The notes: a model not told the origin generated them from the sequence alone. DNA of 34,849 nucleotides from a virus (IMGVR_UViG_3300042446_000807:1-34849), one strand, 5' to 3'; numbered from the stretch's first letter, positions 8,895-32,913 are shown. A program made the numbers and translations.

Positions 8895-11800
8895 ATGGAT
8901 AATAATAAAAATTTTACTCAATCTGGTGAGTCTGCTATACCACAAGAAATTAGAAATTCATCAGATTTTTTACCTTATATTATCAATACAAAAACAAATA
9001 AAAAGTTTTTAGAATCTACATTCGATCAATTAGTTAGTTCTGGTACAACCGAACAAATAAATTACTATTGGGGTAGAGTATCAGGTTCTACATTTGTATA
9101 TAATAACGATGTGTATAATTATGAGCCAAATTCGCTAAGACAAAATTATCAATTTTCTCCAGGATTTACATATCAAGAAAATGATGCTACGCAAGCATTA
9201 TCATATGTAAATATTATAAATCATTTGAAAAATAACGGATATGATATTAACGACGTTGATAGATTATATTCAAATAATGGTTACACCTTAGACTTACCTA
9301 TAAATTCTGATGCATTTATTAATTATATAAATTATTTTTGGATTGATTTGACAATACCAGTATGTTTGATTAATGCTACTCAACAAAATCAAATATATAT
9401 TGAAGATATAATAAATTCACCAAATTACACAACTCCAATACTCAAAAACAACAAATCATTAAAATTACTAAATGGTATGAGAGTATCATTTACAGGAAAC
9501 AATATAAATTTTGGTTCTAATAATATATCACGTGATGCAGTTTATATAGTAGGAGGTGTTGGAAATAAAATATATCTTACTGAAGAAATAGACAAAACTG
9601 GAAAAAATATAAGACCAGGAATAGTATCTTATTCTTTAAAAAATCCAACATTATATGGATCATTGGGTTCTACAGTATTTACATATGACGACTCGATTTA
9701 TACTTCTGGCGAAAAAGAGTATATAGTTATAGATGCGGCATCTACTAATGCAAACCCATGGAGTCGTGTTAATAAATGGTTAAGCAAGTATGCAATTTTT
9801 GAAATATGCAATTATAATGAAATACCATTTAATGAAATTGCAAATATCAATAGTAGAGCAAAACGTCCTATTATAGAATTTAATGCAGATATGGAATTAT
9901 ATAATAGCGGTTTATATCTTCGTGAAACAGTAGAACATATTATAGATTGTAATAACATAATAAATCCAACGATTGATATCGAAGGAAAACCAGAATATAT
10001 TTACTCTAATTCTTCGTTTAATGATACAGACCTTGTTTTATTTTTAAATGCAGATAATACATATTTTAATAATAAAATTTTTACAATACGATATGTTGGT
10101 GGTGAGATAACATTACTTCCATATATAACTTTATTTGAACCAAATGAAAAAATATTAACAAAAACTAGCAATGTAACCGAATACATTGGTGCTGAACTAT
10201 ATTGGAATGGTTCTAAATTTATATTTGGGCAACAGAAAAAATCAAGAGGAAGTAGCCCTTTATTTAATTTATATGACGAACATGGTGTGAATATAAGTCC
10301 TATAATATATAATCAAAATGGTGTGAATATAAGTGCATATCAAAATTCAAATTTTTACGGTGATGCTATATTTTCTTATATAACTAGCACAACATCAGTT
10401 GTAGATCAAGAATTAGGAATTCAAGCTAAAACAAATTCTATGACATCTACTGAATTTATGTTTACTTTTATGAATAAAACATATGGTTCTACTGATGAAG
10501 CCATGCACTATGATAATATAGAAGGGTTGTATTATTATAAAAATAAAGAGAATGATAAGCTATATACAATTTGGAATCCTTTAAAAAATACACAAAGAGT
10601 CCCAGTATTTGAAACAAAAGTATCTGAACAAGATAATATAGAAATACAGTTTGATCTTGGAAATAGCTATAGTGCATCGCTAAATTATATAGTAACAAAT
10701 GAATCCGATTCGTACAAATGGTTTGTTTATGATAAAACTGGAATATCTCTAATTGGTGATAATAGTGAACATGTTATATTCCAAAAAAATAAACAATATA
10801 CAATAACTCCACTTTTAAAAGCAGAAAATATATTACAATTTGTAAACCAATATGGCGAAACAGATAATGATATAACTTATAGTTACCAAACTGATGGTAA
10901 AATAAAACTAAAAATAGAATCAACATATTCTTATAATTCTATCGGATATAAAAATGCAACTAATAATATTAATGGAAAAATATATTTAACAAATAGTGAT
11001 AACACTATTACTTGTTATAAAAATGGAACAAGATTTACACAATATAATATAGAATCAAATATATTAAAAATATCTTCTGATGTGAAAAAAGGTGATGTAT
11101 TTGAACTATCATATATTTCGGATAATGTAAATAAATCACACGATGTTGCTCCAATATTTTCAAATAATCCATTTAATAAAGATATAGATAATATAAGTTA
11201 TAGTGATATTTTAATGCACTTACAAAATCAAATGATAACAAATCCTGCATTTTCTGGATCAGTTACAAATGAAAACAATTATCATTATATCCCAAAAATA
11301 AACACATATGGTGGAATAATTCGTCAACAGTCACATTCACCAGTAATACATAGTGTATTGACTTCTAGAGAAACTAGTGAACCTACTGCTGCAATGCATT
11401 CTGTTGCTATAGATTATGCAAATTTTACACTTTATTTTAAAAACAAAGTAAAACAATTGTGGAATACTCGCAGTTGGGATAATGTAAGAGATTTAGTAAA
11501 CACTGCACTTACAGAAATTAATATAGGAAAATCTTCTGAATTTAAATATGCAAATAGTGATATGGCATATTATGAAAATGGTAAAACTATATCTTATCAA
11601 ATAAAAAATAATACTAACACGTTTTCATTGCTATCAGAAATACATTCTTTTGGATATAATAAAATTCCAACATACATATGGATTTCAGAAAATTCTGGAA
11701 CTGGATATAAGACTAAAATATTAAAGCATAACACAGATTATACTTTTTCAGGAAAATCAGTAGTATTATCTTATGAACCTGTATACAGTGTTCAAAATCC

Positions 11801-14800
11801 TGCGACATTAACAATAACACAATATATAGAGCCATCTTATAGCTTTATACCTTTTAGTTCAGTAAAGTTAGGATTAGAAAAACCATACGATGTAAAAATT
11901 TCAAATGGAAAATTAGAATTGCATGATGGTAGTTTTTATAATTTAACATCAAGTGATATTTTAGATATGAATTCAGTTAACTTTGATGTAGTTGGTGCCG
12001 CATTATATGATCTTGAACTTCGTATATTAAATAATTTACCAGAACAACATAATAATATTGAAAATGTAACCCAATTTATGCCTAAATTTAAAATATATGG
12101 TTCTACTATAGAATGGGAAGAATTTAGAAATAACATTATAAAAGAATTTTATTACTGGAAAAATAGTTTTGATTATGGCAATAAAACTATAATTCCTTGT
12201 GATCCAACTAACGAGTTTTCGTGGAACTATACTACCGTTGGATTTGGTATACCTAGTTGGAGAGGAATATATCTTTATAATTTTGGAACTATTAGACCTA
12301 ACACTCATCCGTGGGAAATGTTAGGACATAATACAAAACCATTGTGGTGGGACACACATTATAGTTGGACTAATTCTACCAAAAGGCAGAAACTAATTAA
12401 TAGTTTAAAATTAGGAATTACAGAAAATCCATCACTTACTACAAGCTATCCTAATCCAAACTATTCATTGATGCATTATGATTGGGATAATAAAACGCTA
12501 GTGACTACTTCTGGTGTTTTGAATGGTCCAGTCTCTGCTGAATTGGTTATTGCTCCAAGTAGTATCAACTATGTAAAGTCATTTGAATATGGCGATATGA
12601 TGTATAACGATGAGTTAAATTGGATGCAATCAAGTGAATACACTTATTCTTTGATAATATCACTAATGAGGTTTATGCCAACAAAAATATTTGAAACTTA
12701 TAGTGCAATAAATTCTATTGAAAAAAAGCAAAATTTATTGTATAACGCAATACAATTAGTATATTCGGATACTGGAACACGAACAACCCCAATACTAAGA
12801 AAAATACATAACGAAACTATTTTAAATTCTGGAATAAGGTCTATTAATATAAAAAATCAAGGATCAAATTATTCAAATCAAACAACCGTAACAGCAAAAA
12901 TATCATCAACTGGTGATGTTGCAAAATTTTTACCAACTATAACAAATGGAAAAATTACTGCGGTAACTATAACTGAATCTGGAATTGGATATAAAAATGA
13001 TATAGAGTTAATAGTAACTGATCCTACTTCTAATGGAAGTGGAGCGTCAATTATTGGAAACATATCTTCTACAAATATTTCTTATATAAATCCAGGAATC
13101 ATGGCAGCTATTGTAGAATATAACAATAATATATACAATCCATCAGAACTTAAAAAAATAATAGAATCTATAAAATTCTCTCCTATTGTTCATATTGGTG
13201 GATATACTAGAAAACAAAATATAGATATTAAGCTAGATGGTAGTTATTTAAAAGGTAACGTATCTATTCCAAAAGAAGATTTTGAAGTAATCTTAACAAA
13301 AAATCCAACTATAAAATCAATATTCTATAGTGGTGTTAGAATTGAAAAAACACAGTCAAACTCATATAGAGTTTGGGGATTTGATATATTAAATCCAAAT
13401 TTTGAAATATACCCACCAAATGTAAACGCATCAGTGGTTGCTGAAAAAATTAATAATTATTCAATTAAAAGATATTTAAAATTTAAAAATAATTCTATAA
13501 AAATTCCATACGGAACAGAGTTTATTAAAAGACAAGATTTGTATAATTTTATGATCGGTCTGGGCGAATTTTATAAAGTAAACGGATTTGAAGTAAATTG
13601 GTATGATGCAGCAAATGATGCCATATCATGGTCAATTGATGAAACCATAGTTGATGATTTTTATCAAAATGGTATAGGTAATTCTATCGTATATAACCAA
13701 GGTTCTCATGGTATTGTTGACCCATTTATTTCTGAAAAAATTTCATTTCCAAAATTGGTTGATAAGAATGGAAAATCAGTAGCTTCTAAAAATATACTAA
13801 TAATACGAAATCAAACTGACACCGAAATTTCAAAAAAGAATCAAAATTTTGATTTATATGGAATCAGCGTAACAGTTAGCGAATATGAACATGTATTAGC
13901 ATTGTCTCCTATAAGTCAATTTGGAGACGTAATATACAATGATGCATTGGGAATTGGACAAAAAAGAATAAAAATTTATGGTGAAAGAACAAGAAACTGG
14001 AATGGCAGAATCGAAGCAAATGGTTATATAGTAACCAGCAATTCTATTTTTGGAAATTTTGAAACTTCTGTAAGAGAAATGGAAAATGATTATGTTAATG
14101 CACAGGGCCGTCCATTAGATTTAAATATTTCAAAAACTTCACGATTTAATGTTGGATATTTAGAACCAAGTTATTTAAATTTAACTACTTCTGATAATAA
14201 CACATTATATCAGTTTTCTATTGGTGAAAGAAAAAGTAAAGGAACGCTTGATGCGATAAATGCATTTACTAGAAATAAAGAATTATTTCAAGGAAATACG
14301 GTTGATTACGAAGTAAGTGAAAATTGGATGGTTAGACTTGGAGATTATGGTGATAAACGTAAGTCAAATCCCATTCAAGTTGAATTAGATAAATCTAGAA
14401 TTAAAACAAACCCACAAGCGGTTCGTCTTAATAAGGTTCCAGTTTTTGATAAATTAGATGACATAGTTATTGATATAAGTGAAAAAGATACCAAATATAT
14501 TGGTGGAGATTTTTCAAAACCTATATCTATAATGCCAATGAAAAATCAAAATTTACAAAATAATAATATATATACTAAAACAGAGTTAGCAAATATTTTT
14601 GAAAATTATTTAACAACTGCTGGACTACCATTAATAACGGAATCAACTCATGCATTCAAATCAATTGATGATATGAATTTGGCATTTGATTCATTAGCAG
14701 ATTATGCCAACATAGAAAATTGGAGTTCTACTAAAGTTTATCGTCAAGGCGATAAAGTAAGATTGAATGGAAAAGTATATCAATTAATAATTGATAGTAC

Positions 14801-17800
14801 AAAACTTAATTATAGTGGTGGAATATTATATGCAAGAGGAAATGTAACATTTCCTACTGCTTCTTCTGGGCAAACTTTTATAATTGGTACAAATTCTAAT
14901 GATATGAAAACCGTAACATTTGAAAAAATAACATCACAAACTATATATGATCCTATAAAAATTAATGGAACTATAACTAATGCAACTACGCTAGCAAACA
15001 AAACTCTCATGTTAGATGGTAAAACTATTATTTTGCAAAAAACAGATAATACTACTGTATATCAACCTATAGAATACATTGGAACAGTAAGTTCACCCAC
15101 ATTCGATGGAACTTCTGGAAAAAGTTTGATTATAGATGGAATAACTATTAACTTAGAAAAAACAATTACCACAAATGAGCAAACAACTGCATTATCTGCA
15201 TTAAATACCGCAATTGAAGATGTAAAAATTTCAACAGCTATTGCATTGGTAATTTCATCTAATAGAATACAAGCATTTAGAAATTTGAGAAGTGAATACC
15301 CAACATATGCGGATTGGACTACTTTCATTGATAATTATTTTAGTGGAATATATGATACATATGGATTAAATATTCCTTATTTAAATACCCAAATTTCAAA
15401 TAGCACTATAGAAAGCAAAACTGAAAAGTTAAATGTATTGCGAAATTCTGACATCGAGTTGATTAATGCTATAAAAAATACTACTTATAGCAATACCGAC
15501 TTGCCTACTCTTTCGGCAAGATCAGAATCAATTGATGCTATAACTAATTCAAGTGTTGCATCTAGAATATTTTCTTCATTTTACGCTGAAATAAAATCAT
15601 CTAGGGCAATAAGTTCTGAAACTATTTTGATTATTGATGTTTTAACATATCCTATAAAATGGAATGTAGACTTATTAGTTGATAAAATTAATTCAATATT
15701 TTTATCATCTGGAAAACCAAGATTAATAGCATCTAAAACTTTATTAAACAACTTAAAAATAACAAAAACAGCAATTGCTCAAGATAATACCCTTGTTATT
15801 AGTTCTGCAACGGCAAATAATGATGTTGGATTTATTGCTTCAACTACCTCATCTAATATATCTGTACCTAATTCTAGTATAATTACATTATCTGAAATTG
15901 TTAATTTAATAAATCTTGCAAAAATTACAAATGTTAGAGCTAGTATAACTAGTGCAAATGGAAATAGTGTATTAACTATTACCAGTAGCAATCCTACACT
16001 TGTTATAGGAACTGCATCTGCCAATACAGATATTGGTATAATTGCTAATCAATATGTCGCTCAAACTACACAATCCAATACAGAATCAGAATTGCAAATA
16101 TACGATATTATTACTCAAATTAATAACGAAAGTATACCTAATATAACCGCGAAAAATGTTAATAACTTCTTGGTAATCGAATCATCAGGCAATTCTCTTA
16201 TTATAGGAAATGGAACTGCTAATATCAAGCTTGGTATATCACAAGTAGAACAAAATGTCAGAGAATATGTAGATAATTTATTTGTCGAAAGCAATTGGCA
16301 ACAAATAACCGATCCTACTGATTTTAAAATATGGGTTCAAGATAATATAGGTTATTTGTTAAATTCAAATACTACATTATCAGGATATAATATGTATCAA
16401 TCATTCGATTTTGATATTAATATCATTGATATATGTCCGGGAGTAGAAGCAGATGATAATGCAATGATAACAGTTGGAAATGATTTGAATGTTTCTGTTG
16501 GTGATTATGTAGTGGTTCTAAATACTAATAGTATTCCAAATATAAATGGTATACATAAAGTTTTAGGCAAAACAAAATCTAATTCTTTCTTAATAGATGC
16601 ATATATTGATACTAATGGATCAAATGGTAAAATATTATTATTAAAACCAACTCGTTTCTCCAGTTCACAAGATTTATTTGATACAATAACAAATGAGTTA
16701 TATTCATCTAATGGCGGTGGATGGAAAGATGGTATGCTTGCATACGTAGACTATGTAAATTATCCTACCGAAGATTTGGATATGGATGGATATAGCAGAG
16801 GTGCTGTTTATAAATGCGTGTCAGATTATACATCCAATAATATATATTTTGAAATCGAAAGATATCAGAATAGAAAGACAAATAATAAAGAAATAAAAAA
16901 TGCAATTATCTATAATGATTTCGTAAATTCATTAAGCTATCTTGAAATTTTTGATCCTGCAAAAGGATTAATACCTGGTGTTGCGGAAAACGAAATTGAT
17001 TTTAAATCGCCATATGACGTTGCAATATATAATAATTCTACTGATATTGATGCATCTTTAGATAATTCTAATTATTGGGGAGAAGAACAGGTTGGAAAAG
17101 TATGGTGGGATTTGGATAATGCAATATATTTAGATTATGAGCAATCGACTTTAGAATACAGACAATCAAATTGGGGTAAACTATATCCAACTGGTAGCAT
17201 TGATGTATACGAATGGGTACGAAGCTCATATTTGCCAGAAGAATATAACCAGTATTCAAATGCAAATATAAAAGTAGATGGTGTAGTTCTTTCAGGACAA
17301 TCAAGATATGAATTAACGTCATATGGCGATACCGTATATTCATGGACAGAAGAAACAACATTTGATCCTATTATTGGTGCTGAAAAAACATATTATTATT
17401 ATTGGGTAAAGAATAAGATTTCTTTACCTAATAATAAAAGAAAATATTCAGTAACTCAATTAAGACAAATAATAGAAGACCCAACCACAGTTGGTATACA
17501 TTGGGTTGCATTTAGTGATTATAATATTTTGTTATTAGGAAATATATCATCATGTGTTTCATGTGCTGGATCAGTATTACAAGTAAACTACGCAAATGAA
17601 AATACTGCATACCATCAAGAATATACATTACTTGCTGAAAATAGTAATGACACATTTATTCCAGAATGGTTGCATATTGGACTTCGTGATAGTGTTGCAG
17701 GTGAAGATAAAAGCATTTATGATTTTAATTATACAAACTGGTCATCAAACATAGTATACTTAACTGGTAATGTAGTAGCATATAATGATCTTTATTATAT

Positions 17801-19478
17801 TTGCCTACAAACCAATAGTTCAAAAAACCCAAAACAAAATATAACTTATTGGAAAAAATTATACTCTGCTAAAGAAATATTTGATGATAAAACACAAACT
17901 AATGTAATAAGAGTATCGGCTCCAAGACAAGTGCCAGATATCTGGCTGCATCGTTTTTCAAGATATGGAAATTTAGTAACACCAAGACAATCTTGGATTA
18001 TGAACCAAATCGAAGCAAGAAGAGTGTTTATAAGTAAAATTAATAAGTTAGTTTCTAAAATAAATGTTGTTAGTGAAATAACAGCATGGGACAAAGTATT
18101 AAATTCTAACATAACAGTTGATAATACTGTTTATAATATGAATGATTATTGGAAGTTTATTGATTGGAAAGACGAATTATTTGATTCTTCTAAAAAAATT
18201 GATAAAATAGTAAATTATAAAGATGATTTGTATGATATAGTAAATCCAATTCAAGGATATTCTGTAAAAGTAAACTTTGCAAATATATATGATGGAATAT
18301 ATAATTATTCGATTTACAAATATGATTTTGGTATTTGGAAAATTGTGTATAAAGAACGTGGGACATTCCAGTTTATAGATGAACTATGGAATTCATATCT
18401 AACTGGTGCAGGATGGGATACTGCATCGTGGGATAGAACTGGATGGGACAATGTTCCTGCGATAGTTTTACAAAGTATTTTTGATACTTTAAAAAATGAC
18501 ATATTTGTAGAAAATTACGAAGCTATGTATGCAGATTTGTGGTTTACTATGGTAAAATATATCATCAGCGAACAAAATTCTATTGATTGGATAATCAAAT
18601 CTACACTAACCGATGTAACTGTAAAATATGCAATGAAAGAGACAAAATCGTATATACCAGATATGGTCGATAGTCTAATAGATTATTTTAACGATATAAA
18701 ACCATTCCATACAAAACTCAGAAACTTTACTGCAAAAAGAAGTATAAGTGATGATTTTATTGTTTCTGTACAAGATCATGGAAAAAAAGCATCAATGACA
18801 TTACAATATAATCAACATACTGAAAAAAACTTTACAGAACTAAATCTAAATGGTGGAAATAATTGGAATTCTTCTAATGATATAGATTATAGTAATTTCA
18901 ATACAACCACATATGATTACATATATGATGGTAATAAATTTATACAACCTAAAGAAGAAGGATGGGCATCTGAACTATTTCCTATGCGTATGACTGATGC
19001 AGTTAGAATTCTAATAACTAGAAATACAAACGGCAGTGTAGAAAATAGTAATTCAGTATACCCAATAATTTTTTCTGATAAAGACGATAAACTAGAATAT
19101 TCAAAATCTACAGCAAATACTATTACTACATTATCTAATGCAGTTCTGTCAACTGATACTATAATCCAAGTAACTGATATTACTAAATTATGGAATCCAG
19201 CTATTTCTGGTGTTGCTTCGGTCAGAGGTATCATATGGATAAATGGTGAGCGTATAACTTATAGAAATATAGAAGGAAACAAACTATTAAATTGTATAAG
19301 AGGAACCAAAGGAACAGTAGCAAGAGGGTATGCATTAAATGATTTGGTGTATTCTGCCAATTCAGAATATGTAACTATAACTCCACCTGAATTTGAATTA
19401 AAAGTTCATGACTGGGACACTGATCTGTGGGATGCTACACTATGGGATAACCCACCAGTGCTTATCGTAAAGATATAA
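8895..19478 (+). CDS. Giant virion structural protein (3527 aa), gp7-position baseplate/tail protein
   Basis: One uninterrupted 3527-codon gene after an AAGGA site. The N-terminus (SSDFLPYIINTKTNKKFL, then EQINYYWGR, and later a INYINYFWI segment) and the C-terminal ADLWFTMVKYIISEQNSID segment plus KPFHTKLRNF belong to a family of giant virion proteins I know from T4-like marine phages, located after gp6. By position it replaces gp7 and perhaps following wedge proteins. Internal modules: G-x-G-Y strand repeats at about 1310-1395; three copies of a ~37-residue IDG unit at about 1980-2095; three copies of an LVIxxxTAN unit at about 2255-2450, resembling flagellin-hook-IN-type repeats; two W-D-rich stretches (WDTASWDRTGWDN near 3175 and WDTDLWDATLWDN at the very end). 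No enzymatic motif seen. Exact role is inferred. Confidence 0.7.
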   Translation: MDNNKNFTQSGESAIPQEIRNSSDFLPYIINTKTNKKFLESTFDQLVSSGTTEQINYYWGRVSGSTFVYNNDVYNYEPNSLRQNYQFSPGFTYQENDATQALSYVNIINHLKNNGYDINDVDRLYSNNGYTLDLPINSDAFINYINYFWIDLTIPVCLINATQQNQIYIEDIINSPNYTTPILKNNKSLKLLNGMRVSFTGNNINFGSNNISRDAVYIVGGVGNKIYLTEEIDKTGKNIRPGIVSYSLKNPTLYGSLGSTVFTYDDSIYTSGEKEYIVIDAASTNANPWSRVNKWLSKYAIFEICNYNEIPFNEIANINSRAKRPIIEFNADMELYNSGLYLRETVEHIIDCNNIINPTIDIEGKPEYIYSNSSFNDTDLVLFLNADNTYFNNKIFTIRYVGGEITLLPYITLFEPNEKILTKTSNVTEYIGAELYWNGSKFIFGQQKKSRGSSPLFNLYDEHGVNISPIIYNQNGVNISAYQNSNFYGDAIFSYITSTTSVVDQELGIQAKTNSMTSTEFMFTFMNKTYGSTDEAMHYDNIEGLYYYKNKENDKLYTIWNPLKNTQRVPVFETKVSEQDNIEIQFDLGNSYSASLNYIVTNESDSYKWFVYDKTGISLIGDNSEHVIFQKNKQYTITPLLKAENILQFVNQYGETDNDITYSYQTDGKIKLKIESTYSYNSIGYKNATNNINGKIYLTNSDNTITCYKNGTRFTQYNIESNILKISSDVKKGDVFELSYISDNVNKSHDVAPIFSNNPFNKDIDNISYSDILMHLQNQMITNPAFSGSVTNENNYHYIPKINTYGGIIRQQSHSPVIHSVLTSRETSEPTAAMHSVAIDYANFTLYFKNKVKQLWNTRSWDNVRDLVNTALTEINIGKSSEFKYANSDMAYYENGKTISYQIKNNTNTFSLLSEIHSFGYNKIPTYIWISENSGTGYKTKILKHNTDYTFSGKSVVLSYEPVYSVQNPATLTITQYIEPSYSFIPFSSVKLGLEKPYDVKISNGKLELHDGSFYNLTSSDILDMNSVNFDVVGAALYDLELRILNNLPEQHNNIENVTQFMPKFKIYGSTIEWEEFRNNIIKEFYYWKNSFDYGNKTIIPCDPTNEFSWNYTTVGFGIPSWRGIYLYNFGTIRPNTHPWEMLGHNTKPLWWDTHYSWTNSTKRQKLINSLKLGITENPSLTTSYPNPNYSLMHYDWDNKTLVTTSGVLNGPVSAELVIAPSSINYVKSFEYGDMMYNDELNWMQSSEYTYSLIISLMRFMPTKIFETYSAINSIEKKQNLLYNAIQLVYSDTGTRTTPILRKIHNETILNSGIRSINIKNQGSNYSNQTTVTAKISSTGDVAKFLPTITNGKITAVTITESGIGYKNDIELIVTDPTSNGSGASIIGNISSTNISYINPGIMAAIVEYNNNIYNPSELKKIIESIKFSPIVHIGGYTRKQNIDIKLDGSYLKGNVSIPKEDFEVILTKNPTIKSIFYSGVRIEKTQSNSYRVWGFDILNPNFEIYPPNVNASVVAEKINNYSIKRYLKFKNNSIKIPYGTEFIKRQDLYNFMIGLGEFYKVNGFEVNWYDAANDAISWSIDETIVDDFYQNGIGNSIVYNQGSHGIVDPFISEKISFPKLVDKNGKSVASKNILIIRNQTDTEISKKNQNFDLYGISVTVSEYEHVLALSPISQFGDVIYNDALGIGQKRIKIYGERTRNWNGRIEANGYIVTSNSIFGNFETSVREMENDYVNAQGRPLDLNISKTSRFNVGYLEPSYLNLTTSDNNTLYQFSIGERKSKGTLDAINAFTRNKELFQGNTVDYEVSENWMVRLGDYGDKRKSNPIQVELDKSRIKTNPQAVRLNKVPVFDKLDDIVIDISEKDTKYIGGDFSKPISIMPMKNQNLQNNNIYTKTELANIFENYLTTAGLPLITESTHAFKSIDDMNLAFDSLADYANIENWSSTKVYRQGDKVRLNGKVYQLIIDSTKLNYSGGILYARGNVTFPTASSGQTFIIGTNSNDMKTVTFEKITSQTIYDPIKINGTITNATTLANKTLMLDGKTIILQKTDNTTVYQPIEYIGTVSSPTFDGTSGKSLIIDGITINLEKTITTNEQTTALSALNTAIEDVKISTAIALVISSNRIQAFRNLRSEYPTYADWTTFIDNYFSGIYDTYGLNIPYLNTQISNSTIESKTEKLNVLRNSDIELINAIKNTTYSNTDLPTLSARSESIDAITNSSVASRIFSSFYAEIKSSRAISSETILIIDVLTYPIKWNVDLLVDKINSIFLSSGKPRLIASKTLLNNLKITKTAIAQDNTLVISSATANNDVGFIASTTSSNISVPNSSIITLSEIVNLINLAKITNVRASITSANGNSVLTITSSNPTLVIGTASANTDIGIIANQYVAQTTQSNTESELQIYDIITQINNESIPNITAKNVNNFLVIESSGNSLIIGNGTANIKLGISQVEQNVREYVDNLFVESNWQQITDPTDFKIWVQDNIGYLLNSNTTLSGYNMYQSFDFDINIIDICPGVEADDNAMITVGNDLNVSVGDYVVVLNTNSIPNINGIHKVLGKTKSNSFLIDAYIDTNGSNGKILLLKPTRFSSSQDLFDTITNELYSSNGGGWKDGMLAYVDYVNYPTEDLDMDGYSRGAVYKCVSDYTSNNIYFEIERYQNRKTNNKEIKNAIIYNDFVNSLSYLEIFDPAKGLIPGVAENEIDFKSPYDVAIYNNSTDIDASLDNSNYWGEEQVGKVWWDLDNAIYLDYEQSTLEYRQSNWGKLYPTGSIDVYEWVRSSYLPEEYNQYSNANIKVDGVVLSGQSRYELTSYGDTVYSWTEETTFDPIIGAEKTYYYYWVKNKISLPNNKRKYSVTQLRQIIEDPTTVGIHWVAFSDYNILLLGNISSCVSCAGSVLQVNYANENTAYHQEYTLLAENSNDTFIPEWLHIGLRDSVAGEDKSIYDFNYTNWSSNIVYLTGNVVAYNDLYYICLQTNSSKNPKQNITYWKKLYSAKEIFDDKTQTNVIRVSAPRQVPDIWLHRFSRYGNLVTPRQSWIMNQIEARRVFISKINKLVSKINVVSEITAWDKVLNSNITVDNTVYNMNDYWKFIDWKDELFDSSKKIDKIVNYKDDLYDIVNPIQGYSVKVNFANIYDGIYNYSIYKYDFGIWKIVYKERGTFQFIDELWNSYLTGAGWDTASWDRTGWDNVPAIVLQSIFDTLKNDIFVENYEAMYADLWFTMVKYIISEQNSIDWIIKSTLTDVTVKYAMKETKSYIPDMVDSLIDYFNDIKPFHTKLRNFTAKRSISDDFIVSVQDHGKKASMTLQYNQHTEKNFTELNLNGGNNWNSSNDIDYSNFNTTTYDYIYDGNKFIQPKEEGWASELFPMRMTDAVRILITRNTNGSVENSNSVYPIIFSDKDDKLEYSKSTANTITTLSNAVLSTDTIIQVTDITKLWNPAISGVASVRGIIWINGERITYRNIEGNKLLNCIRGTKGTVARGYALNDLVYSANSEYVTITPPEFELKVHDWDTDLWDATLWDNPPVLIVKI

Positions 19479-19481
19479 ATA
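19474..19481 (+). promoter_or_regulatory. T4-type late promoter box (TATAAATA)
   Basis: Exact TATAAATA, the T4 late consensus, overlapping the TAA stop of the giant gene. The expected transcript start about six bases downstream would leave a leader of roughly 20 bases containing the AGGTGA ribosome site before the ATG at 19508. In T4 such boxes are read by RNA polymerase with gp55, gp33 and the gp45 clamp. AT-rich sequence makes chance matches possible, but the intergenic placement fits well. Confidence 0.6.
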
Positions 19482-19496
19482 AACATATATAAAGTT

Positions 19497-19502
19497 AGGT
19501 GA
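19497..19502 (+). promoter_or_regulatory. Ribosome binding site AGGTGA deciding the 19508 start
   Basis: AGGTGA ends five bases before the ATG at 19508. The in-frame GTG at 19499 lies inside this site and so is a poor start candidate. Confidence 0.65.
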
Positions 19503-19507
19503 ACGGA

Positions 19508-20116
19508 ATGTATAATTTAGAAGAAAAATCAATAGCCAAAATAGTAGGTCATGTAAAAATAATTGATCCTGATACTGGCGAAGAAATATTAAACAAGAGA
19601 AATGCAATAAATTATGAAAATATGAGCATTTCTCTTGCTTATCTATTAGGCGGAACACAATCTGGTCTAGGGCAAATGTTTGGTATATCACAAATGGCAT
19701 TTGGAAATAGTGGTGTAGTAGTAGATTCTTTAGGAACTATCAACTACCAACCGCCGAATACAGGGACTACAACTGGGTCATTATATAATCAAACATATAG
19801 TAAACTAGTGGCAAATTTGGCATCTGCTAATCCAGAAAACAATATTTCAGTATTGCATACTGCGGGAACATCATATTCTGATATAGTGGTAACGTGCACT
19901 TTGGGATATAGTGAACCATTAGACCAAGATTCTACAGATTTATCTACCACATTTAATGGAAATTATATTTTTAATGAAATTGGACTACTTGAACCTAATA
20001 TAGATAGTATTACACAAGGTGCTACACTAACTCACATAGTATTTCATCCAGTTCAAAAAAGTGCAAATCGTAGAATTCAGGTTATATATACTATAAGAAT
20101 TTCAGTAGGATCATAA
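19508..20116 (+). CDS. Virion structural protein, baseplate/tail-fibre linked
   Basis: 202 residues from the ATG at 19508, chosen over an upstream in-frame GTG (19499) because AGGTGA sits just before the ATG. The protein reads MYNLEEKSIAKIVGHVKI, then a DPDTGEEIL turn, an AINYENMSISLAYLLGG helix, SQMAFGNSG, VTCTLGYSEP, a FNEIGLLEP motif and a VFHPVQKSANRRIQVIYTIRI terminal strand pattern. I recognise the IxxEIGL and TYTIRI pattern from structural proteins located just before tail fibre genes in marine T4-like phages, where it may connect fibres to the baseplate. I know no named T4 equivalent. It has its own late box and directly precedes the first fibre gene by three bases. Confidence 0.55.
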   Translation: MYNLEEKSIAKIVGHVKIIDPDTGEEILNKRNAINYENMSISLAYLLGGTQSGLGQMFGISQMAFGNSGVVVDSLGTINYQPPNTGTTTGSLYNQTYSKLVANLASANPENNISVLHTAGTSYSDIVVTCTLGYSEPLDQDSTDLSTTFNGNYIFNEIGLLEPNIDSITQGATLTHIVFHPVQKSANRRIQVIYTIRISVGS

Positions 20117-20119
20117 AAT

Positions 20120-21604
20120 ATGCCATATACAGTAAATTATACAAACCCAAGTAGAACGCCAATATCTATACTAGATACTACTGCTAATAATTCGACTTCG
20201 TTAACATTAATCGGAAAACAGTATGATCAATATGGAGAAGTCATAGCAGAAAATTTTGTAAAATTATTAGAAAATTTTTCTTATACATCTGCTCCAAATA
20301 ATCCAACACCCGGCCAAGTATGGCACGATTCTGGAAATAAGAAATTAAAAGTGTTTGATAATGCTGGTATATGGAAACCGTTGTCCGCAGTTTATACAGG
20401 AATAACATCGCCAGTTACTAATGCTGCACAAGCTAGTGGTGATTTATGGGCAAATACTGCTACTGGAGAAATATTTATTTACAATGGTAGTGCTTGGATA
20501 GAATTGGGCACACAAACTCAAAATACTGGATTAAGAACAACTAGTAGAATTGACAATAATACATCAGCAACTCATTATACCATAGAAGCAGTTAATGATA
20601 CTAAGACTGTTTTTGTTATTTCTACTGAAGATGGATGGACCCCTGCTGCTAGTGAAAAATTACCAGACAATTCTGTTATGAATTTGTCATATCCAATAAT
20701 ATACAAAGGCATAAATTTTGATATAACTGGTGCATATGGTGTGCACAATCTTTCTACTACTAGAATAAACGTTGGTCGTGGTAATGTTATATTGCAAAAT
20801 AATAGCTTTGATGCAGTCGATGGTGCAGGAATTACATTAAAAACTTCTGATAATCCGATTAACGGTAGTATTTTTTCGGTAAGAAGTTCTGGCGATACAA
20901 GCAGATTATGGGTAGGGCAAACTATTACCACCACAGGAAAAAATGACTTTTATGTTGGATTTGATGGATCAACTGGGCAAGAGTATGATGCAACAAAATA
21001 TAATATAATGTTGGGATTAGACGGAAATATTTCTGCAAAATCAATAACAGGAAATTGGATAGCCACATCTGCTGAATCAATTACCGGAACTATATCAAAT
21101 AAAATAGTAACTCCTTCTACTCTTAAAGCAGCAACAGATGCCAGAATAACAGCACATATATCTAGTGATGATTTATCTCGTGCAACACAGGCTGAAGCTA
21201 CTAGTTCTCTGGCTATAGCCAATATGGCAAATGATAAAGTTATGACACCTGCAAGAACAAGACAAGCCATTGAACAATATTCTCCTAGTATAGTTTTACA
21301 GCAAATAAATACTTATATGTCTGGTAGTTTAAATCCAAATGGATATCAACGTTTTGCAAATGGATTATTATTGCAATGGGGAAAGGCAACAGTTAGTGGG
21401 AATTCTTCCATAACAGTAACATTTACACAACCATACACATCTAACGAAACTGTTTTTGCAGTAATATCTACCCCAATCGGGACAACGGCGGGCGGTGGAA
21501 CAGAAGATTTTTGGGGAGTATTTAACATAACAAAAACTACTTTCGAACAACATACTAGATATGATGGAACCCGATCATTTTATTGGGTTTCTCTTGGTAT
21601 ATAA
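20120..21604 (+). CDS. Tail fibre protein A with gp53-like C-terminal domain
   Basis: 494 residues. The N-terminal about 90 residues (VNYTNPSRTPISI, YDQYGEVIAENFVKLLENF, APNNPTPGQVWHD) are the fibre-attachment module shared with the next two genes. Two GDLW/GQVW...Y...W units follow at about 65-130. A central domain at about 195-345 (INVGRGNVILQNN, GSIFSVRSSGDTSRLWVGQ, NKIVTPSTLKAATD) is shared only with fibre B. The C-terminus (GLLLQWGKATVSG ... FWGVFNITKTTF ... FYWVSLGI) matches the putative phage tail fibre gp53-like C-terminal domain, a receptor-binding tip fold. AGGA lies upstream of the ATG within the preceding gene end. Predicted role: trimeric fibre contacting the host surface. Confidence 0.8.
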   Translation: MPYTVNYTNPSRTPISILDTTANNSTSLTLIGKQYDQYGEVIAENFVKLLENFSYTSAPNNPTPGQVWHDSGNKKLKVFDNAGIWKPLSAVYTGITSPVTNAAQASGDLWANTATGEIFIYNGSAWIELGTQTQNTGLRTTSRIDNNTSATHYTIEAVNDTKTVFVISTEDGWTPAASEKLPDNSVMNLSYPIIYKGINFDITGAYGVHNLSTTRINVGRGNVILQNNSFDAVDGAGITLKTSDNPINGSIFSVRSSGDTSRLWVGQTITTTGKNDFYVGFDGSTGQEYDATKYNIMLGLDGNISAKSITGNWIATSAESITGTISNKIVTPSTLKAATDARITAHISSDDLSRATQAEATSSLAIANMANDKVMTPARTRQAIEQYSPSIVLQQINTYMSGSLNPNGYQRFANGLLLQWGKATVSGNSSITVTFTQPYTSNETVFAVISTPIGTTAGGGTEDFWGVFNITKTTFEQHTRYDGTRSFYWVSLGI

Positions 21605-21607
21605 ATA
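21600..21607 (+). promoter_or_regulatory. T4-type late promoter box (TATAAATA)
   Basis: Exact TATAAATA overlapping the stop codon of fibre A. The predicted transcript start near 21613 lies just before the AAAGGA ribosome site of fibre B (ATG 21624). Same geometry as the box at 19474. Confidence 0.6.
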
Positions 21608-21623
21608 GTATAAAGGAAAAAAA

Positions 21624-23192
21624 ATGTCTTATAATGTAAATTATTCCGATAATACCAAGTCTCCTCTAATTGTAGACGATAATTCTGTTAATTCTCAAAC
21701 TAGTGTAAATTTAGTTGGAAGAAAATATTCTCGATATGGAGAAGCAATATCTGAAAACTTTCTTCATCTTTTAGAAAATTTTGCTAATGGTACTGCACCA
21801 CAATCTCCAATTGAGGGACAATTATGGTATGATAAAACAAATAATATAATGAAATATTATACTAAAAATAATAAGTGGCAGTCATTCTCGAATATATTCA
21901 CAACTAATGAACAGCCTCTTAATGTCGATAGCAGAGTAGGGGATATATGGGTTAAGCCTTCAACTGGAAAAATACATTTTTATAACAATAATGAATGGAC
22001 AGAATTAGGTAGCAGCACTACTGTAATAATTAATGAATCTGGTGGTTCTTCTACTCCAACTCCCACCATAGTTAGTAATGGTATTGCTACTAAAACTCGA
22101 AAAGACACTCAAGGAAATTCTCATGTAACTTTAGAATTTATAGTAAATTCAAAAACAGTTTCTATTATTTCATCAGATGATGCATCGTGGATTCCTGCCA
22201 GCGTAGGTATAAATTCAGAATATCTAGAAGGCAGTTCAACGGTATTATTGGTAAGTCAGTTTCCATCAATTAAAAAAGGTATAAACTTAAATCCATCGGG
22301 AACAACAAAATATAATTTACATAATTATATTATATCAGAACTTGGTCCAGTAAAAATAAATGTTGGCCGAGGCGATGTATATATTGAAGAAAATCAATAT
22401 GATAATTTTAATGGTGCGGGATTAACAATACGAACTTCGTCAAATCCAGTAGAAGGAAGTATTTTTTCAGTAAGAAGTTTTAATAATACAAGTAGATTAT
22501 GGGTAGGACAAAATATCACATCAGTTCCGTCTAACGATTTTGGTGTTGGATTAGATGGAATATTAGGTGAAGAATATAAAGATTTATATAATATAAAACT
22601 TACTACTACAGGAACCATATATGCAAAATTTGCTGGTGGAGATTGGCTTGCAACCGAACAAGAAGCAAAAACAGGATCAATAACAAATAAATTAATGACA
22701 CCAGCTACTACCAAACAGTTAGTTGACACTTATAATTTTGTTCCTTCTGGTGCAATTATGGCATTTGCTATGGAAACAATTCCTACTGGATGGTTAAAAT
22801 GTGACGGAAGTTCAAGATTGCGTTCTGCCTATCCTTTACTTTTTGCAGCAATAAATACATTATATGGTCAAGGTAGTAGTAGTAATTCAACTACATTTAA
22901 TTTGCCAGATTTTCGTGGTGCTTTCTTAAGAGGAAAAGATGATGGAAGAGGACTTGATCCAAATAGAAATTTTGGTAGTTATCAAGAAGATGAATTCAAA
23001 TCGCATACTCATAAAATAACAGATACATCTAGCGGATCAAATGGAGATATGAATAATAGCTTTGATACTTCAGAGAATCTCAACCAAGGACAACCTGGTG
23101 ATCCTAGCAGACCATATGTAGAAACTACTGCATCTGGTGGAATTGAAACAAGACCTAAAAACTATGCAATAGTATATTGTATTAAAGAATAA
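21624..23192 (+). CDS. Tail fibre protein B with phage tail collar domain
   Basis: 522 residues. The N-terminal attachment module (YNVNYSDNTKSPLIV, YSRYGEAISENFLHLLENF, GQLWYDKTNN) and the central INVGRGDV...GSIFSVRSFNNTSRLWVGQ domain are paralogous to fibre A. The tip differs: VPSGAIMAFAMETIPTGWLKCDGS, a YPLLFAAINTLYG helix, and FNLPDFRGAFLRG are the phage tail collar domain, followed by a loop with HTHKI and a terminal Y-A-I-V-Y-C-I-K-E strand. Such tips are found on short tail fibres (T4 gp12 type), where HxH clusters can bind metal; here the H-T-H is at about 459-461. Own late promoter box and a strong AAAGGA site. Probably an adhesin for a different receptor than fibre A. Confidence 0.85.
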   Translation: MSYNVNYSDNTKSPLIVDDNSVNSQTSVNLVGRKYSRYGEAISENFLHLLENFANGTAPQSPIEGQLWYDKTNNIMKYYTKNNKWQSFSNIFTTNEQPLNVDSRVGDIWVKPSTGKIHFYNNNEWTELGSSTTVIINESGGSSTPTPTIVSNGIATKTRKDTQGNSHVTLEFIVNSKTVSIISSDDASWIPASVGINSEYLEGSSTVLLVSQFPSIKKGINLNPSGTTKYNLHNYIISELGPVKINVGRGDVYIEENQYDNFNGAGLTIRTSSNPVEGSIFSVRSFNNTSRLWVGQNITSVPSNDFGVGLDGILGEEYKDLYNIKLTTTGTIYAKFAGGDWLATEQEAKTGSITNKLMTPATTKQLVDTYNFVPSGAIMAFAMETIPTGWLKCDGSSRLRSAYPLLFAAINTLYGQGSSSNSTTFNLPDFRGAFLRGKDDGRGLDPNRNFGSYQEDEFKSHTHKITDTSSGSNGDMNNSFDTSENLNQGQPGDPSRPYVETTASGGIETRPKNYAIVYCIKE

Positions 23193-23210
23193 GAATATAA
23201 GGATCAATAC

Positions 23211-25343
23211 ATGACATATAGAGTTAACTATACGGACGACACTAAATCCCCAATAATAGTGCAAGATGGCGATGTTGACACCACTACTAATATAGGTATG
23301 GTTGGTAGAGGATATACTGGATTTGGAGAAGTTGTTGCTGAAAATTTCTTACATTTGTTAGAAAACTTTGCAGATGAAACACCTCCATCACGTCCAGTTG
23401 AGGGACAAATATGGTATAACAATGCTAATTCTTCAATGTATTACTACACTGTTGCAGAAACATGGAAAAAAGTAGGAAATGTAAGATCAGAAACATTTGA
23501 ACCTATAATAAATGATGGAGAAGTAAATGGAGATTTTTGGCTACATACTACCAAAAATGATCTTTACATGTTTAGTAGCCCAAATTGGGTTTTAATGACT
23601 AATGGTGATATAAGCACAAAAATATATTCTAGAACAAGAAAAGACAACGCAACTCCTATCGGAATACATAAAACTTTAGAAGTAGTTGTTAATAATAAAG
23701 TTGTTGCTGTATTTTCTAGTGATATAGCACCATGGACTCCAAATTCTACCGGAACCAATGCAGAAATTCTAGATGATGGTTTTACTCCTATGGTTAATGT
23801 TTATAATTCAATAAAATTAGGCATAAATCTTATAGATAGAAAAACAATATCAGAAGTAACAGTTTCTACCTCTAATCCAACTACACAAACCACTAGTCAA
23901 TATGTGCGTGAAGGTGACATGTGGATAAATAAAAATTCAAATAGATTATTCACATATACTACGAATGCGTGGCAACGAGTTAATAATTATGTAAAAGTTC
24001 GTGCCGCTGTTCCTGTAGTAGAAAATGATGAACAAACTGGTGATCTTTGGATTAATACATTAACAGACAGTATACATTATTATAATACTGCAAATAGTGC
24101 ATGGGAAATATTAACACCAAATACGACATTTGCTATTACATCGCCTACTATAGCAAATGTCAAAAATACTGGAGATTTTTGGATTAATACTGTTACTCAA
24201 CAATTATTTTCATATAATGGAAATCAGTGGATTAATTTGTCGTTCCAAGAAACAGGAACATTTATTATAACTAAAGACAGGTTAGATATTAATAATGTGT
24301 TACATAAAACATTAGAAACCATAGTTGGAGGAAAAACATTATCAGTATCTTGTGGCGATAACTCGACTTGGGTTCCAAATCAATCAGAACTATTATATGA
24401 AGGTGGCATATACGCTCAGAAATTTTTAAAAATAGTTCCTGGAGAAAATATGTCAAATGAAGTTGGTGAGATTATTATAACTACTACACCAGGCGATGCT
24501 CCTGCTGCTGCAGTAGAATATGATATATGGAAAAATTATGGATTGGTCCCTGCTTCTAGAATAAAAGTAAGAACGACTTCTGCTTGGATTACCCCACCAC
24601 GCATTACAAATAGTGATACTGAACCAACCTCCCCAGCCCCAGCTAAATACGATGTATGGATAACTTTGTCTCGTTACATAATAAAAGTTTATAATGGAAC
24701 TACATGGATATATCCAACTACTATTTACGAAAATGGAACTACCTCTGCCAGTTCAACAAGTGATAATAAAATATTCAACGGTATTGCCGCAAAACAAGCA
24801 ATATCAGGCTCTATGGTAATAGACTATTTAGAAACTACGGTAAGCACAAATTTATATGAGTCAACTTACTTAGATGGTGAAGAGGTTAAAACAACAACAT
24901 CCGTCGCAGGGGCGTTAGTTTATTTAGATCAAAGGCAATGGAGACCTGTCATAAAAGGAAATATTGTTGTTCGAATGACTATGACTGGATTAACTGGATA
25001 TGAATATGAAGTCCATCGTTCCCCAATCGACGCAAACGGAAATGCGTTAGATAGTGGCAGAGTAGCCTACGAAACTTGGTCTACTAGCACTCCAGTTTCT
25101 GGAATTCAGACTTTAGTAATACCATTTATAGATGTAATTTCAGTATATCTACCAAGCTATTATCCAACTAATTTGGTAGGACCATATGAGGTAGTATACA
25201 GGCTACGAATGAAAAAGACTGGGACTTCGTTGAAAACAAAGATGGTTTCTATAGATTTACAACCATTATACGTTACTCCTGACAGTGTTGTTAGTGTCGG
25301 AAATGGCGACTTAGATTTATATCTAAACAATTATATATTATAA
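23211..25343 (+). CDS. Tail fibre protein C with expanded GDxW repeats and unknown tip
   Basis: 710 residues. It starts with the same attachment module (YRVNYTDDTKSPIIV, YTGFGEVVAENFLHLLENF). It then carries seven copies of a short unit of the form G-D-x-W-(I/L)-N/H-T ... Y ... W, at about 65-86, 107-128, 235-257, 277-300, 321-342, 437-461 and 480-501, where fibres A and B have two. A second module (HKTLE...V...K...W-x-P-N) is duplicated at 142-181 and 354-393. The INVGRG/SVRS/LWVGQ domain of A and B is absent. Residues about 510-710 form a C-terminal region unlike either sister and unlike a collar domain. I infer a longer fibre with an unrecognised receptor-binding end. An AAGGA site lies upstream. 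Confidence 0.72.
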   Translation: MTYRVNYTDDTKSPIIVQDGDVDTTTNIGMVGRGYTGFGEVVAENFLHLLENFADETPPSRPVEGQIWYNNANSSMYYYTVAETWKKVGNVRSETFEPIINDGEVNGDFWLHTTKNDLYMFSSPNWVLMTNGDISTKIYSRTRKDNATPIGIHKTLEVVVNNKVVAVFSSDIAPWTPNSTGTNAEILDDGFTPMVNVYNSIKLGINLIDRKTISEVTVSTSNPTTQTTSQYVREGDMWINKNSNRLFTYTTNAWQRVNNYVKVRAAVPVVENDEQTGDLWINTLTDSIHYYNTANSAWEILTPNTTFAITSPTIANVKNTGDFWINTVTQQLFSYNGNQWINLSFQETGTFIITKDRLDINNVLHKTLETIVGGKTLSVSCGDNSTWVPNQSELLYEGGIYAQKFLKIVPGENMSNEVGEIIITTTPGDAPAAAVEYDIWKNYGLVPASRIKVRTTSAWITPPRITNSDTEPTSPAPAKYDVWITLSRYIIKVYNGTTWIYPTTIYENGTTSASSTSDNKIFNGIAAKQAISGSMVIDYLETTVSTNLYESTYLDGEEVKTTTSVAGALVYLDQRQWRPVIKGNIVVRMTMTGLTGYEYEVHRSPIDANGNALDSGRVAYETWSTSTPVSGIQTLVIPFIDVISVYLPSYYPTNLVGPYEVVYRLRMKKTGTSLKTKMVSIDLQPLYVTPDSVVSVGNGDLDLYLNNYIL

Positions 25344-25354
25344 AAGGAAAAAAA

Positions 25355-25747
25355 ATGTTAGAATTTTATGCATATAGTAAAACAAACGGAAAAATTGGAA
25401 ATTCTGGATATTTTTCTCAAGGGTTTTCGCCAGTCTTACGAGAAAATCAAAAAATCATTTTAGGAAAACGTGCATCACCAGAGCAATATCATGATCTAGA
25501 TACCGACAAATTGACACCACGACCAACGTTAAATATAGATGATATTACCCTAATAGTTGATCAAGAATATAATCCACCAAATATACCATCGGGAACTATA
25601 GTGAATGTAGATGACGAAGATGTTGGGATAGTGGATAATACTGGACTTATTTTGGTTTTCCCTGTTGCAAAAACTTATAAATTACAATTAAAGCCACCAT
25701 TCCCATATTTTGAAAAAACTATAACAATAGAGGTTATTACAGAATGA
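25355..25747 (+). CDS. Small tail-fibre-linked protein, function unknown
   Basis: 130 residues with a strong AAAGGAAAA site seven to eight bases before the ATG. The protein is beta-rich, begins MLEFYAYSKTNGKIGNSGYFS, has LTPRPTLNIDD in the middle, and ends with FPVAKTYKLQLKPPFPYFEK and a terminal strand. No signal peptide, membrane segment or catalytic motif is visible. It follows fibre C by eleven bases and overlaps the next start as ATGA. The position suggests a fibre accessory, chaperone or cap protein, by context only. Confidence 0.5.
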   Translation: MLEFYAYSKTNGKIGNSGYFSQGFSPVLRENQKIILGKRASPEQYHDLDTDKLTPRPTLNIDDITLIVDQEYNPPNIPSGTIVNVDDEDVGIVDNTGLILVFPVAKTYKLQLKPPFPYFEKTITIEVITE

Positions 25748-25938
25748 CTAAAATAATTATTAACAAACAAAAAGTCATAGACAAACAAATAGTCGAATTA
25801 AAAAAATTAAGAAATATTGCTTATATAAACGAAGCTGATCCAATATTTTTTAAATCACAACGTGGAGAAGCTACGGTAGCAGAGTGGCAAGCTAAAATAG
25901 AAGAAATAAAACAAAGATATCCATATCCGGGAGAATAA
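25744..25938 (+). CDS. Short conserved phage protein (64 aa) after tail fibre genes
   Basis: 64 residues, start overlapping the previous stop by four bases (ATGA). An N-terminal lysine-rich helix (KVIDKQIVELKKLRNIAY) is followed by EADPIFFKSQRGE and a WQAKIEEIKQRYPYP ending. I recognise the EADPxFFKxQRGE...W...I...RYP pattern from short ORFs beside tail fibre genes in other phages, where they have no assigned function. Its last codons (GGAGAATAA) also provide the ribosome site for the endolysin. A fibre-assembly role is possible but unproven. Confidence 0.5.
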   Translation: MTKIIINKQKVIDKQIVELKKLRNIAYINEADPIFFKSQRGEATVAEWQAKIEEIKQRYPYPGE

Positions 25939-31586: not shown

Positions 31587-31938
31587 ACTAGAGACTAATT
31601 CAAGTTTTTTTACAATTTATAATTATTCTAATATAGATAATAACCAATATTTTAAACAAAATGTAGAAAGTGGATCAGTAAAATACGAAGGCGATACTTT
31701 GTATATTCACAATGGCATAGATTATATACCATTGTTTGAAAATTCTTCAATTGATTTTGCTCCACAATGGAAGTTAGTTTTAGAATGGGCCAGAGATAAA
31801 ATGTATGAAGAATGGGAAACTAAAAAAATGATGGAAAAATATCCAGAAGCAAAGCAGTCTTTTGAAATGCATTCTCAAATATTAAAAACATTAAAAGCAA
31901 TGGAAGCATTAGTTAATGGAGAAAAAAATCTTGATTAA
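31576..31938 (+). CDS. Hypothetical protein sharing its C-terminal segment with the upstream gene
   Basis: 120 residues; the start lies eleven bases inside the previous gene. A beta-type N-terminal half (SSFFTIYNYSNID, VKYEGDTLYIHNGIDYIPLF) is followed by a helical half with KKMMEKYPEAKQSFEMHSQ and ILKTLKAMEALV. The last part lines up with the C-terminus of the upstream protein (EKY-x-E-x-K ... I ... AME). The N-terminal Y-E-G-D-T-L-Y-I-H-N-G segment resembles the strand-turn units in the tail fibres of this phage, suggesting a virion-related origin. Function unknown. Its end overlaps thymidine kinase by 23 bases if the kinase starts at 31916. Confidence 0.45.
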   Translation: MIHKLETNSSFFTIYNYSNIDNNQYFKQNVESGSVKYEGDTLYIHNGIDYIPLFENSSIDFAPQWKLVLEWARDKMYEEWETKKMMEKYPEAKQSFEMHSQILKTLKAMEALVNGEKNLD

Positions 31939-32506
31939 TGGAAAAATCGAATCAATATTTGGACCAATGTATGCTGGAAAAACAAGTGAATTGTTAAAGA
32001 GAATTCTATGGTTGAAACATCAAAATTTAGAAATTTTAGTAATAAAGCCTAAAATAGATAATAGATATTCAGATGATGAAATAGTAACACATACTGGACA
32101 CCGATTTCCATGTATTTATACCAATAAACTTATGGATTTGTTGGAAGTAAATCCTATCTTAAATCGACAAATTCCAAAAATAATGCTAAATCACACAATA
32201 TTCATTGATGAAGTTCAATTCTTCGAAATTGAGGATTTGAAAGAATTTGTAAAAATTTTACAAAATAATGGGATTTGTATAGTATCTGCTGGATTAGACC
32301 AAGATAGTTCTGGTGTTCCATTTGACAGTTCTGCTTATATGCTAGCTATAAGTGATGAAGTAACTAAAATTAAAAGCTTTTGTAGTGTATGTGGGCAACC
32401 TGCTACTAAAACTTATAAAATATCCAATAGTGGAAATAGAGTAGAAGTCGCAAGTGTGGGAGTATATGAGCCAAGATGCTTAGAACATTGGAAACCAGTA
32501 AGATGA
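31916..32506 (+). CDS. tdk: Thymidine kinase
   Basis: 196 residues, the normal length for the TK1-type family. P-loop GPMYAGKT at 16-23, the catalytic/Mg site F-I-D-E-V-Q-F-F (E99), the SAGLDQD lasso region at 124-130, and zinc ligands C156, C159, C188 and H191. It phosphorylates thymidine to dTMP, feeding dTTP synthesis for replication of this AT-rich genome. The start is uncertain: ATG 31916 has GGAAG nine bases upstream, while TTG 31931 has GGAG nine bases upstream, and either keeps the P-loop. It overlaps the cytidylyltransferase gene (ATGA), consistent with a salvage and precursor operon. Confidence 0.93.
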   Translation: MEKKILINGKIESIFGPMYAGKTSELLKRILWLKHQNLEILVIKPKIDNRYSDDEIVTHTGHRFPCIYTNKLMDLLEVNPILNRQIPKIMLNHTIFIDEVQFFEIEDLKEFVKILQNNGICIVSAGLDQDSSGVPFDSSAYMLAISDEVTKIKSFCSVCGQPATKTYKISNSGNRVEVASVGVYEPRCLEHWKPVR

Positions 32507-32913
32507 CAGTTGGTATAACATTTTCTGCATTTGATTTATGCCATAGTGGGCATATACAAATGCTTAGAGAAGCAAAATCTCAATGCGATTATTTGATATG
32601 CGGTTTGCAAGTTGATCCTAATATGGAAAGACCTGATAAAAACAAACCTATTCAAACTTTGATAGAAAGATATACACAATTAAAAGCGGTAAAATATGTA
32701 GACGAAATAATACCATATATAACAGAACAAGATATTTGTGATATATTAGAAATGTATCCAATAAACATTCGAATTATTGGTGAAGAATATCGTGACAAAG
32801 AATTTACTGGCAAAAATATATGTGAAAAACTAGGTATTTCGGTCTATTTTAACAGAAGAAATCATAGATTTTCCAGTAGAGAATTAAGAAATAGAATAAA
32901 GGATTTAAAATGA
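32503..32913 (+). CDS. TagD-like cytidylyltransferase (nucleotidyltransferase fold)
   Basis: 136 residues from the ATG at 32503, chosen over an in-frame ATG at 32476 because it overlaps the kinase stop as ATGA and the fold starts immediately (MTVGITFSAFDLCHSGH). Family signature: HxGH as H14-S-G-H17, a CDYLICGLQVDP strand, a ERYTQLKAVKYVDEIIPY segment, and a final F-S-S-R-E-L-R-N-R-I equal to the S-S/T-x-x-x motif of this superfamily. The closest named relatives are glycerol-3-phosphate cytidylyltransferases, which make CDP-glycerol from CTP. The actual substrate cannot be told from sequence. Located between thymidine kinase and a conserved hypothetical. Confidence 0.8.
   Translation: MTVGITFSAFDLCHSGHIQMLREAKSQCDYLICGLQVDPNMERPDKNKPIQTLIERYTQLKAVKYVDEIIPYITEQDICDILEMYPINIRIIGEEYRDKEFTGKNICEKLGISVYFNRRNHRFSSRELRNRIKDLK

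Follow-up and report, generated by a model that had tools for sequence, protein, structure and literature searches.

Three tandem paralogous fibre genes with different tips in the baseplate region of a probable T4-like jumbo myophage

Described multi-adhesin phages

Phages combining several adhesins that have conserved N-termini and exchangeable tips are already known from the Ackermannviridae (PMC11414711) and the phages RaK2 (PMC10253068) and phi-Kp24 (PMC9700779). In Ackermannviridae such as CBA120 and S117, several receptor-binding proteins, namely TSP1-4, have related N-termini, tandem genes and exchangeable receptor-binding domains (PMC11414711). Related N-termini, tandem genes and exchangeable tips are also seen in the locus described here, which belongs to a 34,849-nt stretch of viral DNA analysed as a whole (hereafter the window) and contains three fibre genes designated A, B and C. 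The Ackermannviridae, however, possess beta-helix tailspikes and gp10-like XD docking domains, neither of which was found in the window, and A, B and C gave no Pfam or PHROG match to beta-helix depolymerase bodies at the sequence level. RaK2 and phi-Kp24 resemble the window in being jumbo phages with many receptor-binding proteins per virion, and RaK2 has a single copy (ORF065) of the attachment module shared by A, B and C. Unlike the fibres of the window, the adhesins of both phages form a separate gene cluster of depolymerases that carry D1/XD N-termini (PMC10253068).

The module itself is found in tandem in the Xanthomonas jumbo phage XacN1, where ORF232-ORF237 code for six consecutive module proteins with different C-termini, although these have P/T-rich linkers and are sited among replication genes. 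It was mentioned by the XacN1 authors that no tail-fibre homologues were present and that no fibres were seen by microscopy (PMC5852040). The former statement seems doubtful given the six module proteins. In Pseudomonas phage PA5oct (as well as in MIJ3, Callisto and others) the resemblance extends to a giant structural ORF, a gp8-like gene and adjacent module fibres with different tips, gp358 and gp359. PA5oct differs in having only two copies, whose tips are Gp10_C and a chaperone-like end similar to the Peptidase_G2 tips seen in relatives, and it has neither the gp53-like/collar pair nor an orphan long fibre.

In T4, four trimeric proteins (gp9, gp10, gp11 and gp12) sit at the periphery, every one at a site of its own. 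Their genes follow genes 6-7-8, as the fibre genes do in the window, and the tip of B is gp12-like. In contrast to the window fibres, the T4 proteins do not form a set of paralogues that share one anchor, and profile comparison of the anchor module with gp9, gp10, gp11 and gp12 revealed no similarity. The window adds to these systems a different anchor, the distribution of that anchor across a jumbo-phage group and the rule by which anchors follow their position in the array, all three being new.

Gene layout of the fibre cassette

The region 5' of the fibres encodes a gp5-like hub that includes an M15 peptidase, a lysozyme on its own ORF, gp25, gp6, a structural protein of 3527 aa and a 205-aa protein, with the hub, gp25 and gp6 assigned by PHROG matches. 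The gene order corresponds to 5-6-7-8 in the T4 series 53-5-6-7-8-9-10-11-12, the fibres occupying the place of T4 genes 9-12. The giant 3527-aa ORF (8895-19478) is assigned to the gp7 position by gene order alone; it also contains two CBM5/12 carbohydrate-binding matches (Pfam E 2e-8). Within 2760-5218, the hub carries the M15 peptidase whereas the lysozyme has an overlapping ORF of its own (4499-5218); the tail tip may thus combine two wall-degrading activities.

The fibre genes are three intact ORFs of 494, 522 and 710 aa in tandem on the + strand, separated by 19 bases (A-B) and 18 bases (B-C), with an AGGA-type ribosome-binding site ahead of each. The features are as follows:

19499..20116, +, 205-aa baseplate protein at the T4 gene 8 position, gp8-like fold; the start may be ATG 19508
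20120..21604, +, fibre A, 494 aa: anchor, two G-x-x-W units, D2, shaft shared with B, two K-M-T-P repeats, gp53-like tip
20120..20341, +, attachment module of A, residues 1-74 (module search)
21350..21601, +, tip of A, PF21882 gp53-like C-terminal domain, residues 411-494 (Pfam)
21624..23192, +, fibre B, 522 aa: anchor, two W units, D2, shaft, one K-M-T-P repeat, collar tip
21624..21842, +, attachment module of B, residues 1-73 (module search)
22749..23189, +, B tip, consisting of Phage Tail Collar (residues 376-434) plus a gp12-like C-terminus that has an H-T-H motif at residue 461
23211..25343, +, fibre C, 710 aa: anchor, D2 twice, seven W units, orphan C-terminal domain
23211..23429, +, attachment module of C, residues 1-73 (module search)
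23913..24230, +, C shaft, residues 235-340, with three additional G-D-x-W repeats (DNA repeats D2/D3/D5 and protein units)
24798..25340, +, orphan C-terminal domain of C
25355..25747, +, 130-aa ORF 3' of C with its own AGGA site (weak phrog_18216 match, E 0.002)
25744..25938, +, 64-aa ORF of phage families of unknown function (phrog_2687, E 9e-10)

The original prediction, made from this DNA alone, of three tandem paralogous fibres with one attachment module and three different tips was thus confirmed at its positions. Judging by its location only, the 130-aa ORF is possibly a fibre-assembly protein. Farther along the window (31916-32913), a thymidine kinase gene adjoins one resembling heptose-phosphate adenylyltransferase (phrog_7878, E 6e-32), which may be connected with sugar or LPS metabolism.

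Sigma-70 promoters and terminators were not more numerous in the cassette than in shuffled sequences. T4 late-promoter-like octamers TATAAATA are located at 19474-19481 and 21600-21607, shortly 5' of the 205-aa gene and of B, but are no more than suggestive because the window contains six of them against 13.9 expected, i.e. fewer, with no enrichment. No near-identical DNA repeats connect A, B and C, which means there has been no recent gene conversion; a gene-conversion or phase-variable cassette was considered and rejected, as the copies are too diverged.

The model of the 205-aa protein has a pLDDT of 77. Its five best fold matches, clear of the rest, without exception come from the tail or baseplate and include T4 gp8 (Z 7.2; the chain length and the entry agree with gp8). 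Since there is no sequence-profile match to T4 gp8, the protein is named gp8-like by fold and position only. Among 80 related contigs (IMG/VR loci), 79 have its gene directly 5' of one or more module-bearing fibre genes, and the same holds for named jumbo phages, XacN1 being the exception in gene context, and the protein is conserved in 60 jumbo-phage records.

Anchor, shaft and tips of the three fibres

Within the N-terminal 80 aa, the identity is 42% for A/B, 38% for A/C and 56% for B/C, and the similarity is 31-55 standard deviations above shuffled sequence in segment tests; used as a query, the 74-aa module of A matches the copies in B and C with E values of 4e-22 and 6e-20. The N-terminal motif pointed out previously is present, although it is not the whole of the shared part, which spans about 345 aa between A and B and some 230 aa when C is included. 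The A-B alignment (residues 1-340/368) has 41% identity (E 3e-91), and either of them aligns with C over the ~230 aa. The domain order is an anchor (residues 1-55), G-Q/D-x-W...W units, D2 (~140-210) and a shaft found only in A and B (~210-345), followed in A and B by one or two copies of a repeat ending in K-(I/L/V)-(M/V)-T-P and then by the tip. G/Y-D/Q-x-W...W units number seven in C versus two each in A and B, the repeats of C having been overlooked in the original prediction; with seven W units and two copies of D2, C is a lengthened fibre with an orphan end.

AlphaFold2 modelling of B residues 1-230 (75 rows) gave a mean pLDDT of 91. The anchor had no Foldseek match in PDB at E 0.001, and sequence searches of solved structures with the anchor, the 205-aa protein, A and C returned no relevant match. 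One W unit of B with its neighbours resembles the trimerisation domain of collagen XV/XVIII (Z 5.6 over 50 residues) and, more weakly, the C-terminus of CBA120 TSP3 and the N-terminus of Mtd (Z 2.1-2.2), values in a range where perhaps only a common arrangement is shared; the Mtd_N family PF18454 was matched by a single relative at E 6.5e-5, under the cut-off.

As predicted, A ends in a gp53-like domain (PF21882, E 7e-6, above the cut-off) and B in a collar domain (PF07484, E 5e-19), while the end of C has no Pfam match. For the tip of B there is, in addition, a match to 1ocy, a structure of the T4 short tail fibre (E 4e-8), the likeness to T4 gp12 consisting of the Collar and the C-terminal receptor-binding domain, both present. 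With the N-terminal attachment and shaft of gp12 the hhalign probability is just 0.1%, so B is gp12-like at the tip only. Searches of Pfam, PHROG, PDB sequences and 50,697 phage records, together with the IMG/VR scans made, gave no relative of the orphan end of C. The IMG/VR scans with the C tip and with the A/B shaft yielded nothing related, save L090, the nearest relative of the window, when an alignment query was used.

The module was detected in 61 phage records, nearly all of them from jumbo phages, including the PA5oct group, RaK2, K64-1, 121Q, GAP32, CBB, Atu_ph07, SCTP-2, Phosso and XacN1. A consensus query matches the jumbo-phage records over 80-100% of its length, whereas other phages (cyanophages, streptococcal phages) are reached via the W unit only: the anchor module is limited to the jumbo-phage clade and the W unit (A residues 56-83) is widespread. 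There is one copy in RaK2, SCTP-2 and Phosso, two in PA5oct and six in XacN1; many aquatic contigs have one to four, and arrays of three or four are common in IMG/VR. In predicted viral proteins of uncultured phages the same N-terminal fold is joined to collar, gp53-like, gp10-C, collagen, C1q and self-processing-chaperone tips.

Array position, tip exchange and placement on the virion

The nearest relative found, and the sole close one, is L090/L169, whose 205-aa protein is 65% identical to that of the window and whose second fibre is truncated and contains a gap. A pairs with L090 fibre 1 (98/98) and B with L090 fibre 2 (98/87), and a single clade of A, B and C was rejected (p-AU 0.008). A and L090 fibre 1 are 53% identical over residues 1-340, but the tip of A matches nothing in fibre 1; likewise, L090 fibre 2 runs on into collagen-like sequence in place of the collar of B. 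In all four fibres (A, B and both of L090) the break falls just past the K-M-T-P repeat. A tail-assembly chaperone gene (PF16778, E 4e-21) is located 3' of the L090 fibre 1 tip. Thus, as far as the sequences of this pair go, the anchors keep their place while both tips differ.

The position rule was examined on a module tree of 29 non-redundant three-copy arrays. Array-position labels change five times on this tree versus at least 33 times (mean 41.5) when positions are shuffled within genomes, and module identity is 64% at the same position between genomes versus 49% within a genome. The modules sort by position and not by genome, as dedicated, non-interchangeable sites would give. Tips also follow position (near-duplicates are included in these counts): the collar cluster is first in 43 of 44 cases, the exception being B of the window, all 36 examples of one unnamed tip are in second place, and of 114 Peptidase_G2-type self-processing domains 104 are last or alone. 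The window stands outside this triad, its anchors grouping with those of single-fibre phages and L090 (98/96), and no Peptidase_G2-type fibre was found in the 34.8-kb window, a fragment which may leave out other fibres. In three-copy arrays the Peptidase_G2-type tip is on a different anchor line, so that tip and anchor have different histories. Single-fibre relatives (L092:8819-9880 and similar) carry a Peptidase_G2-type tip on an anchor close to those of the window. A module tree of the whole set (84 columns) leaves the window copies unresolved and is not the basis on which A, B and C are placed.

Homology, positional orthology, tip replacement and gene order are the demonstrated part of the reading we prefer, in which the locus is probably a receptor-binding-fibre cassette of a T4-like jumbo myophage with position-fixed anchors and exchangeable tips, the fibres most likely having their own sites and being displayed together. 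Each of A, B and C would be a fibre subunit, presumably homotrimeric by family resemblance. Docking would take place via the N-terminal ~60-70 residues at the baseplate periphery, probably beside the gp8-like 205-aa protein and the giant wedge protein, partners suggested by the constant gene order and by fold. The short W-containing hairpin units may hold the trimer together and set the shaft length, and the C-terminal domain is expected to contact the cell. By analogy B would be a gp12-like short fibre with an LPS-type receptor, A a second adhesin and C a longer fibre. The tips would be swapped by recombination just past the K-(I/L/V)-(M/V)-(T/N)-P repeat, sometimes along with an assembly-chaperone gene. 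The three anchors would represent diverged lines, each tied to its place in the array, which makes a separate site for every fibre, and joint display of all three, most likely.

As for the virion, the PA5oct record contains ESI-MS/MS notes on both adjacent module proteins with different tips, gp358 and gp359, and on gp357, the gp8-like counterpart by position; purified virions are not stated in the record, and a literature search found no paper reporting PA5oct proteomics. The single module copy of RaK2 is annotated as a virion structural protein. As both PA5oct copies carry such notes, several module fibres can probably coexist in one virion. The suggestion in the original prediction that a virion may carry several adhesins thus gains indirect support from PA5oct and RaK2, while its idea of the same kind of site or of mixed populations is disfavoured by the sorting of modules by position. 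The wider host range that it also proposed is a possible consequence. Competition of the three fibres for equivalent sockets, giving mosaic particles or mixed populations, would agree with the homology of the anchors, which are 38-56% identical and align as one family, but these diverge by position, are conserved by position across genomes and show no recent gene conversion among A, B and C, making it an unlikely arrangement.

Somewhat less probable still is a branched complex, with one baseplate-anchored fibre bearing the other two in the manner of Ackermannviridae tailspikes or phi-Kp24. A branched arrangement is assumed for the multi-fibre jumbo phages RaK2 and phi-Kp24 (PMC10253068, PMC9700779), and distinct anchors would arise likewise; however, the gp10-like XD domain was not found (no profile match to T4 gp10 and a fold match to the TSP4 N-terminus with a Z of just 2.3), and the N-termini of A, B and C are of one kind, none of them showing a recognisable additional docking domain. 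That only one copy functions, the others being reserve cassettes for some conditions or decaying, is very improbable despite the TATAAATA late-promoter-like octamer just 5' of B, compatible with separate control, since A, B and C are all intact with ribosome-binding sites, the arrays are conserved in dozens of contigs and both PA5oct copies bear MS notes.

Going beyond the preferred reading of separate sites and joint display, one may tentatively propose an as yet unnamed class of baseplate adhesin sockets in a jumbo-phage lineage, in which the gp8-like protein and the giant wedge protein offer non-equivalent sockets, one per anchor line, resulting in a fixed multi-receptor layout with tips exchanged singly; in the window, the usual self-cleaving-chaperone fibre might have been replaced by the long fibre with the orphan tip.

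For a large and poorly studied phage group this amounts to a testable rule, in which anchors are passed on according to array position and tips are exchanged at a set seam. It would let adhesins be recognised where annotation misses them, as in XacN1, and sequence could then be used to predict how many receptor-binding proteins there are and where they sit. PA5oct, with close relatives grown on PAO1, makes the question of joint display directly answerable.

Several module-bearing records deserve separate mention. The annotated start of RaK2 ORF065 (L085:5773-7005) seems too early, with the module beginning at about residue 46 and the extra N-terminus overlapping ORF064. Module contigs L175-L183 are placed in GTDB marine bacterial and archaeal metagenome bins and are probably phage contigs binned with their hosts or by mistake. 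The six tandem fibre-like module proteins of XacN1, ORF237-ORF232, occupy L087:8496-17552.
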